Origin: Prevotella sp.
GTDB taxonomy: Bacteria; Bacteroidota; Bacteroidia; Bacteroidales; Bacteroidaceae
Length of the DNA: 11,307 nucleotides
Direction of reading: 5' to 3'
NCBI GenBank assembly: GCA_017442765.1
Contig: JAFRZC010000124.1
Coordinates: forward strand, 1 to 11,307
Positions within the stretch are counted from its first letter, which is position 1; the number at the start of each line of letters is the position of its first letter. Under the pieces are notes generated by a model. It did no database searches. It worked only from the letters and a program-made list of their open reading frames with translations, and was not told the origin of the DNA. This document shows, one piece after another, positions 3,828-11,307 of the stretch. The translations under genes were made by a program, and so were the position numbers.

Positions 3828-5921
3828 TTACTTCAGAACAATCTTTTTCCCGTTGCGGATATAAATACCCGGTTTTAATTGAGAATTGGCTGGCGCATTG
3901 AAATTATCCATTGTCCATTGTCCATTGTCAATTATCTTGCGGCCTTGCAAGTCATAAATGGATGAGGGATGAGAGATGAGGGACGAGGGGGTCGTTATGC
4001 CTGTGCTGGTGTCGTAGGTGAAGGTGAGTCTTATGGCATTTTCCCGTTTCTCTCTGGGGAACATATAGTATTTGCCATTGTTGTCTATGAGCTGGAAGTA
4101 AGAGCACAGGCGATAGGTCTGACCTTCGTGGAGTATTGTTGACACCCGGTCGAAGAGATCCACTCCCATGTTCGTGGCATAGAACTTCTTGAGGTGCTTG
4201 TCGCCGCCCTCGTCAGTCTGCTCCTGACATGTCAATGAGCCGAGGTAACCTGTCAGGTCGCTGCCTTTCTGGTCTTCTACCCAGAATTGCAGACTGACGT
4301 TCTGGCTTTCGAAGTTGAGACTTGCATTGCGCTCGAACCGCACCATGATATCGTCAATAATCAATGAGCCGACTTGTCCGAGGTTGCTGTTCTCTCCGCT
4401 GATGGAGCTGTCGCCGTTGACAGAGAAATTCTTCTTTTTTCCGTTCACGGTCAACCCGAGAGAGGCGGTGTTGCTCTCGTAGAATTCAAGGTCGCCCTTC
4501 CCCTTCTTGTATTTAATTTTGTAGTTCGCACCACCGTTGTTGTAGCTGAAGGTGTTGGTGCCGTCGGTAGCCTCGAAGTAGAACTCAAAGATGTAGATGG
4601 CATTGTCCTGAATGTCCTCGCCTACCAGATTGATGTCCATTTCTTCCGGTTCCCAGGTTCTTTCATCCTTCTTGACGGCCTCGAAAATATAGTAGCCATT
4701 TTCGGGGATTACGCTTTCGCCGTTTTCGGTGGTTAGCTTGAAGTGACCGGTCACTTTTGTGACATTGCCCGATGTGGTAACGGTGTAGCCCGTTACGCGG
4801 AATTTGGAATCGGGCTCATCCGACTGGTCGAACATTTCCATGCCCGACAGCGGGAGATCCATTCCTTGCTGACCTTCTCCCATGTCGGCATAGACCCTCA
4901 CCCCGGTAATGGCAAGGTCGATAGGATTTACTTCGGCCATGAGCATTGTAGTTTCACTGTTGAAGGTGAAGGTGACTCTGTAAACTCCAGCCTCGCCGAT
5001 AGCGAACTGTTCATTTCCGTCTTTGGGATACCTGAGACTCCACTCATGGTCTGCACAAACTTTGTAATAGTAGATGCCCGACGAGAGAAAGCCGGTCTTG
5101 GTGAGGGTCCACATGTTGCCGCCGATTTCGGTCATGTCGTTGGCCGCGATGGTTGCGTCCCAGGTTTTGCCAAGGAGGGCATCATCAAGATTTGCGCCAA
5201 CGCCCTCAGGTCCTCCGGCAATGGTCCAGGTGTGAGTGATGACTGCGTCGCTGGTCTTTATGGCCTCAGCAGAGAGGGCATGCGTGGTCTCGTTGAAGGT
5301 GAAGGTCACGTTGTACTCACCATCTTCGGAAATGGCAAACGACGCATTCGACGAGGGATAGTTTGTTCCCCAGTCGTGATTCTTCGTTACCTTGTACTCA
5401 ATGGTTCCCTTGCCCAAAGGCTTGTTCTTCAACTCGAGCTTATAGGTTCCGTCGCTTTGAAGGGTCATGTCGTTGGCGGTGTTGGAGGGATCCCACGACG
5501 TTCCGAAGAGTGCCACCGACGAGCCTGCAATGGTCCAGGTGGATGCGCCAGGGGTGTAAGAACCCGTCTTTACTGCTTCGGAGCTGACATCCTGCCAGTC
5601 GGGGTCGAAGGTGAAGGTCACGGTGTACTTGGCAGTCTCCGTGATGACGAGTTTGTCGTTGTCGGCAGGCCACGAGTTGGTGTAGCTGTGGTTCTCTACA
5701 ATCTTGTACTCGTAGGTGCCGGCTTCGAGCCCGCAGTTCTCGATGACGAGCTGATAGGTGCCGTCGCTCTGCAGGGTCATGTTGTTGTCATTGTTGTTCA
5801 GGTCCCAGCTTTTTGTTCCATTGAGGATGACTGAGTTGCCTACTACGGTGTAGGTGTCTTGCGCTGCCACGCCGAGGGTGGCAAGCAGCGAAACTGTTAA
5901 TAGCATTAAAAACTTCTTCAC
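3828..5921 (-). CDS. Exported protein with three starch-binding-like repeats
   Basis: The 697-residue product starts with a signal peptide (KKFLMLLTVSLLATLGVAAQ, residues 2-21). The start codon is GTG; the ATG at codon 6 would lose the basic N-region. Three repeats of about 100 residues follow (24-118, 128-223, 231-333), each built as TxTIAG...WD...NDMT...GTYxL...YKVxxxHxWxxxYP...YxVTFTF. These resemble X25/SusE-SusF-type starch-binding domains. Residues 338-640 form one or two unrecognised beta-rich domains. The end, IYDLQGRK...LKPGIYIRNGKK (655-692), resembles the C-terminal sorting-like module common in Prevotella, so cell-surface location is likely. Tandem 7-base repeats interrupt this module. 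The gene starts 33 bases after kbl with no obvious promoter and may be co-transcribed. Glycan binding is inferred; no catalytic domain is visible. Confidence 0.78.
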   Translation of the reverse strand: MKKFLMLLTVSLLATLGVAAQDTYTVVGNSVILNGTKSWDLNNNDNNMTLQSDGTYQLVIENCGLEAGTYEYKIVENHSYTNSWPADNDKLVITETAKYTVTFTFDPDWQDVSSEAVKTGSYTPGASTWTIAGSSVALFGTSWDPSNTANDMTLQSDGTYKLELKNKPLGKGTIEYKVTKNHDWGTNYPSSNASFAISEDGEYNVTFTFNETTHALSAEAIKTSDAVITHTWTIAGGPEGVGANLDDALLGKTWDATIAANDMTEIGGNMWTLTKTGFLSSGIYYYKVCADHEWSLRYPKDGNEQFAIGEAGVYRVTFTFNSETTMLMAEVNPIDLAITGVRVYADMGEGQQGMDLPLSGMEMFDQSDEPDSKFRVTGYTVTTSGNVTKVTGHFKLTTENGESVIPENGYYIFEAVKKDERTWEPEEMDINLVGEDIQDNAIYIFEFYFEATDGTNTFSYNNGGANYKIKYKKGKGDLEFYESNTASLGLTVNGKKKNFSVNGDSSISGENSNLGQVGSLIIDDIMVRFERNASLNFESQNVSLQFWVEDQKGSDLTGYLGSLTCQEQTDEGGDKHLKKFYATNMGVDLFDRVSTILHEGQTYRLCSYFQLIDNNGKYYMFPREKRENAIRLTFTYDTSTGITTPSSLISHPSSIYDLQGRKIIDNGQWTMDNFNAPANSQLKPGIYIRNGKKIVLK
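3901..3936. repeat. 7-base tandem repeat inside the exported-protein gene
   Basis: Three identical CCATTGT units (3908-3928) are followed by CAATTAT and preceded by AAATTAT. On the coding strand they encode residues 662-674 (KIIDNGQWTMDNF), which split the YDLQGRK half of the C-terminal module from LKPGIYIRNGKK. Gain or loss of one unit would shift the reading frame. Confidence 0.7.
3961..3988. repeat. Second 7-base tandem repeat inside the exported-protein gene
   Basis: Units GATGAGG, GATGAGA, GATGAGG and GACGAGG encode residues 645-654 (PSSLISHPSS), just before the YDLQGRK motif. The unit sequence differs from the CCATTGT array 24 bases away, but the unit length is the same. Confidence 0.65.
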
Positions 5922-8271: not shown

Positions 8272-10860
8272 ATGAACTTTACCAAACCCTTCGTCGGCAT
8301 GGCGACAATAGTTGCCGTTGCCGCCATCGTTGCGTGTAGTAGTAGCAGAGTAACCCAACAATTGGAACAGCGCACTGATGCCCTCGATGCGTCGGCATGG
8401 AGCATGTCGAAGTGGATATCGGCTGCCGATGCCCCCGTTATAGAGGGGCGCATCAACAACAGTGCGAAAGAACGGGCTGCCGACGGGGCCAGTTGGTTCC
8501 TGTCCACCGTGACCAACAAGGCCAAAGTGAAATCGGCCAAATGGATGACGACGGGGCTTGGGGTCTATCAGCTTTTTGTCAACGGACAGCCCGTAGGCGA
8601 GGAAATATTAAAGCCTGGTTTCACCCATCCCTATAAGACACGGCGGTCGTTCACCTATGATGTGACCGCCCTGTTCAACACAAAAGCCGGCGCGGAAAAT
8701 CAGCTGGCTGTACAGGTCACCCCCGGCTGGTGGGCCGATAAGATTGTCACGCCCTGGGAACATGAGGGGATGGTGGGGCGCAAGTGTGCCTTCCGTGGTG
8801 TCTTGCAGTTGACCTTTACCGACGGAACCACGAAATACTACGGCACCGACACCGACACATGGCGTGCCGGTATTGCCGGACCTGTGAAGCATGCCGCCAT
8901 TTTCGACGGCGAGAGCTATGATGCCCGCGAGCCGTTGCCCTTCCAGAGCATGGAACGGCTGACAGTTCCCGAGGTGAACACTGAGTTCTCGGGCGACATC
9001 CTGCCTTCCGATGGTGCCGAGGTCTATCTGCGCGATGATCTCACGCTCTCTCCGGTAAAGGCTTATACGTGGAAAGGTGTGCAGGGTGCAAGGGAAAACG
9101 AGTTTGGCAAGGTTGTCGTCGTCAGCGAGTTTGCCCCTGATGCAGAAATCACTGTCGGGAAAGGCGAGACGCTTGTCGTCGATTTCGGACAGAACTGCGC
9201 CGCTGTGCCGTCGTTTGTCTTCAAGGCCGAGCCTGGAACAAAACTGACGTGCCTGCCTGGAGAGCTGCTCAACGACGGCAACGGAGCCCGTAGCCGTGGC
9301 ATGGACGGACCAGAGGGGAGCGTCCATCGCGACAACCTTCGTATGGGGCAGACGGGTATGCGCCTCGAATATACCTTTGCCGGAACGGGCGATTACGAGA
9401 GCTATCGCCCGCAGTGCACCTTCTTCGGCTACCGTTTTGTCTCCATCACCGCCACCGATGAGGTGCACATCAAGCGCATCGAGTCGGTGCCCGTCACATC
9501 AATCGGTAAACACCTCGAGACAGGCATAATCACTACCGGCAACGAGCTTGTCAACAAACTCATCTCGAACACCGTCTGGGGTCAGCGGTCGAACTATCTC
9601 TCTGTGCCCACCGACTGTCCGCAACGTAACGAACGGCTCGGATGGACTGCCGACACGCAGGTGTTCACCGAGACGGGAACATTTTTTGCCGACACCGACC
9701 GCTTCTTCCACAAGTGGATGCGCGATATGCGCGACACGCAGAGCCCCACAGGCGGCTTCCCCGGCGTGGCTCCGCTCGCACAGTATGGCGGCGAGATGAT
9801 GCGCTTGGGATGGGCCGATGCAGGCATCATCGTGCCGTGGACCATCTGGAAGCAGTTTGGCGATAACGGTATCGTTGATGAGAACTGGGAGTCGATGAAC
9901 CGTTTTATCAACCATGTCAACGAAAACCAGTACAACCACGAGCGGCTTATTGGCGAGAACGGTGACTACCAATGGGCCGACTGGCTCAGCTACGAGCCGC
10001 TGGAGAGTTGCAGCGGACGCGCCTTCGCTGACGGGAAACCCCTGCCCGATGCCGTCAACTACTGGAATTATCTCAGTGCCTCTTACTGGGCTATCGACGC
10101 GCTGATGATGGCCGACATGGCCAAGAGCACCGGCCGCGATGCTACGCCTTATCTGAACATGGCCGCCAACGCGAAAGCCTATCTCATTGAGAATTTCCTG
10201 AATAGCGACGGGACATTCAAGCCCGACATCCTTAACACCATGCAGACACCCGCGCTCTTCGCCCTGAAGAACCAGCTCGTTGAAGGAGAGACCCGTGAGC
10301 GGATGCTGGCTCGCCTTCGTCAGAACTTCGCCGACCACGGCAACTGCTTGCAGACGGGTTTCCTGGGAACATCCATCCTCATGCAGACACTCACCGAGAA
10401 CGGTATGAGCGATATCGCCTATGAGCTGCTTCTTCAGCGCAAGAACCCCTCGTGGCTCTATTCCATCGACAACGGTGCCACCACCATCTGGGAGCGGTGG
10501 AATAGCTATACCGTCGATAGCGGCTTGGGGCCGCAGGGCATGAACTCGTTTAATCACTATGCCTACGGAGCCGTGTGCCAATGGCTATGGGAGAGCGTGG
10601 CAGGCATCGCCGCCGACCCCGCGCAACCTGGCTTCCGACATATCATCATGAAGCCCCAGCCCGACAAGCGACTGGGGCATGTCAATGCCGAATACCGCTC
10701 CAAAGCCGGACTCATCAATAGCAGCTGGCGCTACGACGGCGACCAGTGGACATGGACCTTCACCGTGCCCAAAGGCTCCACCGCCACCGTCATCCTCCCG
10801 GGCGATACCCAGGGCAAGGAATACAAAAGCGGCACCTATACCCTAAGAAAGCAGATTTAA
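8272..10860 (+). CDS. GH78 alpha-L-rhamnosidase, lipoprotein
   Basis: The 862-residue enzyme should release terminal alpha-L-rhamnose from plant or microbial glycans by inversion. The N-terminus is a lipoprotein signal with lipobox IVAC (C22) followed by SSS. No acidic surface-export signal follows the cysteine, so attachment on the periplasmic side is possible. Domains in order are an N-terminal beta-domain (about 35-225) ending in GESYDAREP, a beta-sandwich (about 280-400, VVDFGQNCAAVPSF), an (alpha/alpha)6 barrel (about 420-770) and a C-terminal beta-domain (about 775-860). The catalytic signature DCPQRNERLGWTADTQ (448-463) gives D448, proposed general acid E454, W458 and D461. WERW supplies E741 as probable base, and NSFNHYAYGAV follows. 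It lies 37 bases after tdh with no promoter visible and ends before a strong terminator, so the two probably share a transcript. Confidence 0.92.
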   Translation: MNFTKPFVGMATIVAVAAIVACSSSRVTQQLEQRTDALDASAWSMSKWISAADAPVIEGRINNSAKERAADGASWFLSTVTNKAKVKSAKWMTTGLGVYQLFVNGQPVGEEILKPGFTHPYKTRRSFTYDVTALFNTKAGAENQLAVQVTPGWWADKIVTPWEHEGMVGRKCAFRGVLQLTFTDGTTKYYGTDTDTWRAGIAGPVKHAAIFDGESYDAREPLPFQSMERLTVPEVNTEFSGDILPSDGAEVYLRDDLTLSPVKAYTWKGVQGARENEFGKVVVVSEFAPDAEITVGKGETLVVDFGQNCAAVPSFVFKAEPGTKLTCLPGELLNDGNGARSRGMDGPEGSVHRDNLRMGQTGMRLEYTFAGTGDYESYRPQCTFFGYRFVSITATDEVHIKRIESVPVTSIGKHLETGIITTGNELVNKLISNTVWGQRSNYLSVPTDCPQRNERLGWTADTQVFTETGTFFADTDRFFHKWMRDMRDTQSPTGGFPGVAPLAQYGGEMMRLGWADAGIIVPWTIWKQFGDNGIVDENWESMNRFINHVNENQYNHERLIGENGDYQWADWLSYEPLESCSGRAFADGKPLPDAVNYWNYLSASYWAIDALMMADMAKSTGRDATPYLNMAANAKAYLIENFLNSDGTFKPDILNTMQTPALFALKNQLVEGETRERMLARLRQNFADHGNCLQTGFLGTSILMQTLTENGMSDIAYELLLQRKNPSWLYSIDNGATTIWERWNSYTVDSGLGPQGMNSFNHYAYGAVCQWLWESVAGIAADPAQPGFRHIIMKPQPDKRLGHVNAEYRSKAGLINSSWRYDGDQWTWTFTVPKGSTATVILPGDTQGKEYKSGTYTLRKQI

Positions 10861-10910: not shown

Positions 10911-10926
10911 TGTGAACTTGTTCACA
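10911..10926. promoter_or_regulatory. Perfect CRP-like palindrome TGTGA-N6-TCACA
   Basis: TGTGAAC and GTTCACA flank two bases, giving a perfect 16-base palindrome that fits the CRP/FNR-family half-site pattern. It stands 50 bases after the rhamnosidase stop and 12 bases before the terminator. No promoter is adjacent on either strand, so a regulatory role is unproven. Confidence 0.3.
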
Positions 10927-10937
10927 AACAAAAGAAA

Positions 10938-10973
10938 AGGCACCTACAAAATCTTTGTAAGTGCCTGATTTTT
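10938..10973 (+). terminator. Bidirectional rho-independent terminator
   Basis: AGGCAC (10938-10943) pairs with GTGCCT (10961-10966) and TACAAA (10945-10950) with TTTGTA (10954-10959), with one mismatch between and a 3-base loop. A T-run (10969-10973) follows on the plus strand. On the minus strand the stem is followed by TTTTCTTTTG. It ends the tdh-rhamnosidase transcript, and its position just past the tRNA 3' end suggests it originally served the minus-strand tRNA gene too. Confidence 0.85.
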
Positions 10974-10978
10974 CAGCG

Positions 10979-11024
10979 TGGACCAGGTAGGGCTTGAACC
11001 TACGACCTCCAGATTATGAGTCTG
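10979..11024 (-). tRNA. 3' fragment of a tRNA with anticodon CAT (attachment site)
   Basis: On the minus strand 11024-10979 gives four bases of the anticodon stem (CAGA), loop CTCATAA with anticodon CAT, TCTGG, a 5-base variable loop AGGTC, a perfect T-arm GTAGG-TTCAAGC-CCTAC, the acceptor 3' strand CTGGTCC and discriminator A. CCA is not encoded. The acceptor 5' strand, D-arm and first base of the anticodon stem are absent: identity to a tRNA ends at 11024 and AT-rich DNA follows. The anticodon stem lacks the GGG/CCC pairs of an initiator, so it derives from elongator tRNA-Met or tRNA-Ile(CAT). Such 3' halves ending in the anticodon stem next to an integrase gene are typical att sites. It cannot make a functional tRNA alone. 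Confidence 0.85.
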
Positions 11025-11074
11025 TTAAAATAAAATTTTTTAGGATTTCATAAAATTTTTCTTGGCTTTGTAAG

Positions 11075-11104
11075 TTGTTGTTTCACAATTATTTTATAAC
11101 TTTG
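11075..11104 (+). promoter_or_regulatory. Promoter of the integrase gene
   Basis: TTG (11075-11077), a 19-base spacer and TAACTTTG (11097-11104) match the Bacteroidota pattern. Transcription would start near 11110, so the 11-base repeats lie inside the leader, downstream of the start point. Confidence 0.65.
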
Positions 11105-11147
11105 CAGCGCAAAAGTGAAATTTTAATAAACCTCAATTAATGGGCGA

Positions 11148-11191
11148 TTTTGTTCGCATTTTGTTCGCAAATTGTTCGCAAATTGTTCGCA
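11148..11191 (+). repeat. Four 11-base direct repeats (TTGTTCGCA)
   Basis: Units at 11148, 11159, 11170 and 11181 read TTTTGTTCGCA twice and AATTGTTCGCA twice, without interruption. The 11-base period is close to one helical turn, so a protein bound to each unit would sit on the same face. The position between promoter and integrase start suits an operator or integrase/excisionase arm sites. The array is too short and lacks spacers for a CRISPR. Confidence 0.85.
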
Positions 11192-11224
11192 AGATTCCCA
11201 TGAACGAAGCAACAGACTATAGTT

Positions 11225-11307
11225 ATGAAGGCTGAAAAGACATCAATCAAGTGCGGAAAAGTGGACAACTGTTCACTTACTCTAGTTCTCGACAAACGTA
11301 CCAATAA
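11225..11307 (+). CDS. Tyrosine recombinase/integrase, N-terminal part only
   Basis: The frame opens with MKAEKTSIKCGKVDNC and then SLTLVLDKRTN before running off the right edge (27 codons visible). An SLTLVLDKR-like strand followed by a basic turn is typical of the N-terminal arm-binding domain of Bacteroidota tyrosine recombinases from conjugative elements and islands. The only in-frame ATG after the upstream stop (TGA 11201-11203) is at 11225. It overlaps the end of a 31-codon frame (11140-11235). The adjacent tRNA fragment supports the assignment. The catalytic domain is outside the window, so activity cannot be judged. Confidence 0.65.
   Translation, partial: MKAEKTSIKCGKVDNCSLTLVLDKRTN

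Follow-up and report, generated by a model that had tools for sequence, protein, structure and literature searches.

The window, the whole 11,307-nucleotide stretch of Prevotella sp. DNA analysed here, very probably ends with the attR of an element from Prevotellaceae/Bacteroidaceae that is integrative and probably mobilizable, inserted in the anticodon loop of a tRNA-Met gene. The features that bear on this are the following:

8272..10860, plus strand: alpha-L-rhamnosidase gene, chromosomal flank 3' of the tRNA
10918..10934, plus strand: TTGTTCACAAACAAAAG, resembling one arm repeat plus spacer of locus L120 (TTGTTCGCAAAACAAAG; weak match, E 7.2)
10938..10966, minus strand: host-side terminator hairpin belonging to the tRNA gene (from the sequence and its likeness to genome G161)
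10979..11026, minus strand: displaced 3' half of tRNA-Met(CAT), attR copy (from an Rfam match, comparison with relatives and the sequence)
11012..11020, minus strand: CTCATAATC, the anticodon loop and its edge
11027..11224, plus strand: P' arm of the element, the 198 bp between the tRNA half and the integrase start, conserved in L116, L117 and L118
11150..11191, plus strand: four TTGTTCGCA repeats in 11-bp steps (starts 11150, 11161, 11172 and 11183), putative arm-type sites
11225..11307, plus strand: first 27 codons of an integrase (tyrosine recombinase) gene, cut by the window end

The reverse complement of 10979–11026 is AACAGACTCATAATCTGGAGGTCGTAGGTTCAAGCCCTACCTGGTCCA, the 3' 48 nt of elongator tRNA-Met(CAT), comprising the acceptor 3' strand, T arm, variable region and anticodon arm, up to the discriminator base. 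The D arm and the acceptor 5' strand are absent; the place expected for the tRNA 5' half is occupied by the TTGTTCGCA repeats, followed by the integrase ATG at 11225. The earlier note had seen here the 3' 46 bases of a CAT-anticodon tRNA ending within the anticodon stem; it is indeed the 3' part of such a tRNA, but it is 48 nt long, lies on the minus strand and includes the anticodon arm. ARAGORN called no tRNA in the window, ruling out an intact or cryptic one, and against the Rfam tRNA model the piece scores 29.0 bits (E 0.011, model positions 10–63), equal to the gathering score. In intact tRNA-Met genes of relatives the 3' half is the same as that of the window, apart from the T-stem and a few bases, which excludes chance similarity to a tRNA. 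A plain tRNA pseudogene without an element was also considered for the window and rejected. The displaced tRNA fragment and the adjoining integrase gene are both present in the window, the identity of the integrase being established via relatives. CTCATAATC is common to the tRNA-Met junctions printed, save that of L142, which has a mutated core; the crossover therefore lies in or beside CTCATAATC, its exact base not being fixed.

The DNA from 11025 to 11307 was used as a query against 399 genomes of the family, 44 of which matched, four of them strongly (E ≤ 3.8e-34). The remaining matches were short and were judged by length and query position; only four, located at the arm repeats, were examined further, and these are far ends: three of them adjoin an intact tRNA-Met, and the remaining one lies behind a displaced half. 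The window junction was found in three of the 399 genomes sampled (L116 in G072, L117 in G122 and L118 in G093), each time as a tRNA-Met 3' half followed by the P' arm and integrase start of the window. The fourth strong match, L119, is an integrase remnant in which an N-terminal piece is fused to a C-terminal piece, with no tRNA upstream within the stretch read. When the window and the three relatives are aligned, the element side is nearly identical, save for the number of arm repeats (three TTGTTCGCA copies in each relative versus four in the window) and a tandem duplication in L118, while T-stem, terminator and flank differ between hosts. Three different T-stems occur among the four, each still paired; that of the window, GTAGG/CCTAC, is the T-stem of the intact tRNA-Met in G255 and G684, beside which the 156 bases read contain no arms. 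A constant element side next to a host-variable T-stem and flank places the boundary at the anticodon loop and makes the half in the window host-derived, bearing out the proposal in the earlier note that it is the original chromosomal copy. Relatives inspected for a plain copy, a comparison which that note had suggested, give a consistent picture, with an intact tRNA-Met and no truncated one in all eight (G001, G002, G003, G653, G684, G527, G255 and G355); in four further genomes the tRNA-Met 3'-half pattern search found no match.

On the host side of the tRNA piece, the terminator that had been noticed earlier is a hairpin with 13-base arms (10938–10950 and 10954–10966) and one G-U pair, 91% alike over 56 bases to the terminator beside the displaced half in G161. 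The closest genomes by rhamnosidase are G001 and G002 (about 80%), with 96% amino acid identity for KBL, and no tRNA-Met was found within 10 kb of the rhamnosidase in L001 and L002. Elsewhere in the window, 3828–5921 on the minus strand encodes a large secreted repeat protein of 697 aa, with a C-terminal tail that by eye resembles a Bacteroidota sorting signal.

This side might also be something other than plain chromosome, the tRNA half in the window marking where one slot of a tandem array meets the next, with another element or its remnant to the left. L116 and L117 have arms of another type on their left side, five genomes (G072, G161, G266, G258 and G310) contain three tRNA-Met 3' halves each, and the degenerate arm-like 17-mer at 10918–10934 adjoins the window terminator. 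That 17-mer is a possible, if weak, remnant of a neighbouring slot, but its match has an E of only 7.2, and the left side is syntenic chromosome, with the order orf1-KBL-epimerase-rhamnosidase as in L001 and the rhamnosidase ending 118 bp from the tRNA 3' end. We consider a slot boundary unlikely.

Far ends of the window's type, that is, a tRNA-Met with GCGAACAA arms (read along the tRNA), are present in seven genomes. An intact tRNA-Met is followed by its terminator and then window-type arms in G208, G161 and G122; the arms come after an intact tRNA-Met in G001, G002 and G527, and behind the displaced half of another element, element A, in G072. Two of the seven, G122 and G072, also contain the window-type integrase end, on another contig. 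By pattern, G122 contains only two tRNA-Met 3' halves: contig C22 contains the intact tRNA-Met with window-type arms, and contig C59 the displaced half with a window-type P' arm and integrase start, of which only 20 residues are seen. Their T-stems differ (CCAGG/CCTGG in the intact gene, CTTGG/CCAAG in the displaced half), which indicates that integration swapped the 3' half. As the two ends are on different contigs, likewise in G072 (C43 and C84), we infer their continuity. A window-type integrase was found in none of the other five genomes (G001, G002, G527, G208 and G161; G002 has only a 25% match); the evidence that far end and integrase belong together therefore comes from G072 and G122, over contig gaps. 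The far ends lacking an integrase may belong to incomplete assemblies, to decayed elements or to slots moved by another integrase. In G093 the displaced half is present and no intact tRNA-Met was found by pattern, and among the relatives there is no whole element of the window's own subtype on one contig.

These integrase-less far ends in five genomes would also fit a remnant, a dead attR left behind after decay or deletion of the integrase and far end. Integrase remnants do exist (L119), the two ends of one slot in G161 have different arm types, so that this slot may be a hybrid, and the window stops after 27 integrase codons. However, these 27 codons are intact, as is the entire P' arm, and both are almost the same as in three relatives, one of which is open over at least 313 codons, making a remnant improbable. 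In all four cases the contig, or the similarity, breaks off within the integrase gene, after 313 codons in L116, about 20 in L117, 94 in L118 and 27 in the window; for each of the three relatives, the contig end falls in this gene or at most 50 bases from where the similarity stops. That the breaks fall inside a gene common in metagenomes is perhaps due to strain mixture or to several copies.

Related integrases are found in complete elements, four of which are bounded, on a single contig, by an intact tRNA-Met on one side and a displaced 3' half on the other; a fifth begins at a tRNA-Met with a D-loop insert, not called by ARAGORN:

G173: complete element, 18.8 kb, TTGTTTTCCCA-type arms
G197: complete element, 30.4 kb, TTGTTTTCCCA-type arms
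G072: complete element A, 25.2 kb, TTGTTTTCCCA-type arms
G022: complete element, 17.0 kb, TTGTTTTCGCA arms
G310: fifth element, 40.3 kb, TTGTTTACGCA arms

All five have a single arm motif at both ends. The intact tRNA that the earlier note expected at the far end is thus present on the same contig in the four related elements (17–30 kb), but for the window subtype only across a contig gap (G122 and G072). Genes for a relaxase (PF03432) and a NikA-like protein are present in the G022 element and in element A of G072, whereas none of the window-subtype DNA revealed a relaxase; no conjugation genes were noticed by eye. The D-loop-insert gene of G310 is also the far boundary of another slot, and at this shared boundary its 5' half seems to be element-carried, completing the displaced half. 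The tRNA-Met-like genes of this kind, in which a hairpin of about 30 nt interrupts the D-loop region, are at L145 (G310:C1, about 2467.6 kb), L135 (G135:C116) and L083 (MT839845). A misjoining of two metagenome fragments at tRNA sequence, which the nearby contig breaks in relatives and the repeated tRNA halves might suggest, is highly improbable, given that the same junction occurs with different flanks in four assemblies and that related elements have both junctions on single contigs.

On this reading of the window, the tyrosine recombinase of the element recombined an attP containing a tRNA-Met 3' half with the host tRNA-Met gene, in the anticodon loop. At attL, beyond the window, the host 5' half would be joined to the element's own 3' half and terminator; as the element's half completes the host 5' half, the tRNA should stay functional. 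The host 3' half would be pushed to the other end of the element, giving the copy seen in the window, and the TTGTTCGCA repeats would be arm sites bound by the N-terminal domain of the integrase. Relatives show both ends, the host-specific nature of the displaced half, the integrase and the pairing of arm repeats; in them, elements are also stacked in tandem, and window-type far ends have defence-like genes beside them. For the window copy, we infer the same far end and a similar cargo, as well as activity and movement by borrowed conjugation.

The probable integrase gene start announced in the earlier note stands: from the ATG at 11225 there are 27 codons, and the corresponding frame of L116 continues for 313 residues, to the contig end, into the tyrosine recombinase family. 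This frame has 697 relatives at E ≤ 0.001, the best of which, P0001 (482 aa, 98% identical), stands for 1735 sequences. P0001 matches Phage_int_SAM_5 (E 3.6e-7) and, with 22.4 bits and an E of 1.1e-4, Phage_integrase (PF00589), for which the Pfam cut-off is 27.1; L081 reaches 28.4 bits for PF00589. As to the catalytic domain anticipated downstream, the frame leads to proteins with a Phage_integrase match, that of P0001 being below the cut-off. A PDB sequence search yielded only IntI4 (E 0.49), aligned at RHSFAT..GH, and the predicted structure of P0001 had a mean pLDDT of 36.6, making the model useless.

Counted at E ≤ 1e-60, relatives of the integrase occupy 28 places in 26 of the 399 family genomes. 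A script that searched 1300 bp, allowing up to 5 mismatches in 30, located a tRNA-Met 3' half at most 700 bp upstream in 19 of the 28. The other nine comprise one mutated core (L142), two at another CAT tRNA (by eye), two with too little upstream DNA and four without a tRNA-Met half. Integrase relatives at 3' halves of another CAT-anticodon tRNA are L148 (G124) and L154 (G255); judged by eye, it seems that the family can change its tRNA target and keeps the ATTATGA loop. The half and the integrase are on opposite strands in 11 of the 19 places, as in the window, and on the same strand in eight. The midpoint rooting of the integrase tree serves for drawing only. In this tree, the same-strand type occurs in a single clade, which also contains L134 and L138, both of the opposite type. 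The integrase gene has thus switched sides relative to attP within one clade. Core sides are opposite for closely related integrases, L134/L138 versus L135, L139–L141 and L144–L147.

Viral contigs contained neither the pattern of three arm repeats nor a relative of P0001 or P0023. Phage records contained five distant integrases (22–29% identity); in plasmid records there was one with 49% identity (OY726034, L081), plus two with 25%. With only distant integrases in phage records and none in viral contigs, the element is not a phage of those collections. A small circular element was also considered, since many of the protein matches lay on contigs of about 5 kb; it was dropped, as nothing else was found for it.

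A natural domain swap provides a view of arm recognition. Between the L134/L138 and L135 integrases, residues 122–470 are 99–100% identical and residues 8–112 only 73% (P0001 numbering); in the L135 group, both parts of the integrase differ alike in the 12 pairs printed, out of 55. At the DNA level, the same comparison gives 84–96% identity in the leader, 64–68% over about 200 columns near the gene start and 97–100% from about 330 columns past the start codon. The arm repeats beside the gene change along with the N-terminal domain (TTGTTTTCGCA versus TTGTTTACGCA), and the tRNA-Met core is unchanged. L143 has an L134-type N-terminal domain; neither arms nor a tRNA were found beside its gene. 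The plain reading of this one swap, seen at the sequence level, is that the N-terminal domain binds the arm repeats, which would make the TTGTTCGCA repeats of the window arm sites.

A strongly conserved leader, about 320 nt upstream of the integrase, is present in one clade and not in the window (14 loci: L134, L135, L137–L144, L146, L147, L151 and L081). Its folding energy is −70 kcal/mol, versus −27.5 (s.d. 4.2) in 60 column shuffles and −42.5 for the reverse complement, and 19 pairs are changed on both sides, versus 5.8 (s.d. 2.5, maximum 11) in shuffles and 14 in the reverse complement. Rfam gave nothing at gathering scores for the leader loci scanned, only MIR807 for L139 (E 3). From these comparisons, the leader is a candidate structured RNA controlling the integrase.

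Elements stack, in slots closed by tRNA-Met 3' halves. Besides the genomes with three halves, G323 and G135 have four, and G173, G340 and G122 two; the halves are spread over contigs in G072, G323, G135 and G122, and most of the genomes counted were picked for holding the integrase. G161 has a 2.06-kb slot whose only gene encodes an ATPase; it lacks an integrase, and either end carries TTGTTTACGCA-type arms, of which one copy is degenerate. A 4.5-kb slot in G258 contains, by eye, another integrase and a HigB/HigA-like pair. We tentatively propose, although the odds are against it, that the anticodon loop of Bacteroidaceae tRNA-Met is an accreting, integron-like defence locus. Several integrases would share the core and recognise their own elements via an exchangeable N-terminal domain and its arm repeat (TTGTTCGCA, TTGTTTTCGCA, TTGTTTACGCA or TTGTTTTCCCA), and slots would stack and move separately, even integrase-less ones such as the one-gene slot of G161.

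The cargo beside window-type far ends looks like phage-defence systems, with model matches to Pbe/Ssp-like, BREX, Lamassu-like and methylase genes. In G122, PADLOC matches seven of nine proteins, all nine ORFs being listed (PbeA with 1114 bits, SspD with E 1.1e-57, AbiH with E 2.3e-32, and DndB-like and LmuB/PbeC-like proteins). The G161 cargo has matches for six of the nine proteins scanned, of 11 ORFs listed (BrxC, PglZ, BrxL, BrxP and a DndB-like protein, the match of the ninth protein being weak). For element B of G072, five of the eight proteins scanned match, of 15 ORFs listed: LmuA (2.5e-71), PDC-S01, PDC-S33 and, weakly and partially, JetC (5.8e-6) and JetD (4.3e-4). G001 contains a C5 methylase gene, cut by the contig end, and the G002 cargo resembles that of G122 by eye.

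Through this hot spot and this integrase family, Bacteroidaceae of gut and rumen apparently exchange what resemble phage-defence systems. The signature of a tRNA-Met 3' half with element-specific arm repeats finds and delimits such islands in metagenomes, and the natural domain swap offers a direct way into arm recognition by a tyrosine recombinase. Among the literature matches listed, mostly from non-subscription journals, no title or abstract start mentions a tRNA-Met anticodon-loop island family in Bacteroidaceae.

Islands that regenerate the tRNA and displace its 3' fragment are of a known kind. In Islander, 2083 of 3919 islands are of the anticodon class (PMC4383910), and that paper describes the same layout, with the tRNA regenerated at one end and its 3' fragment displaced to the other, the same anticodon-loop crossover and the recognition of tandem arrays. 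Unlike that class in general, as described there, the islands here have an integrase family of Bacteroidaceae that is mostly found at tRNA-Met; their arm repeats are element-specific and present at both ends, and the integrase is often on the displaced side. The Bacteroidota integrative mobilizable elements NBU1, NBU2 and MTnPi4 (PMC5704250) share the tyrosine integrase, the tRNA target and mobilization genes (here in two related elements), but the Bacteroidota targets among the table rows consulted are 3' ends of tRNA-Leu, tRNA-Ser and tRNA-Pro, versus the tRNA-Met anticodon loop here. ICECleSHZ29-like ICEs of Type I are likewise Bacteroidota elements in tRNA-Met-CAT; they differ (PMC12561888) in that their 17-bp repeat lies at the gene's 3' end, in being conjugative and in their resistance cargo. 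A further parallel comes from mycobacteriophages that integrate at anticodon loops (PMC10865867): Boilgate and Omega have cores of 43 and 44 bp that cover the tRNA 3' half, the tRNA being restored at attL, although these are temperate phages of actinobacteria.
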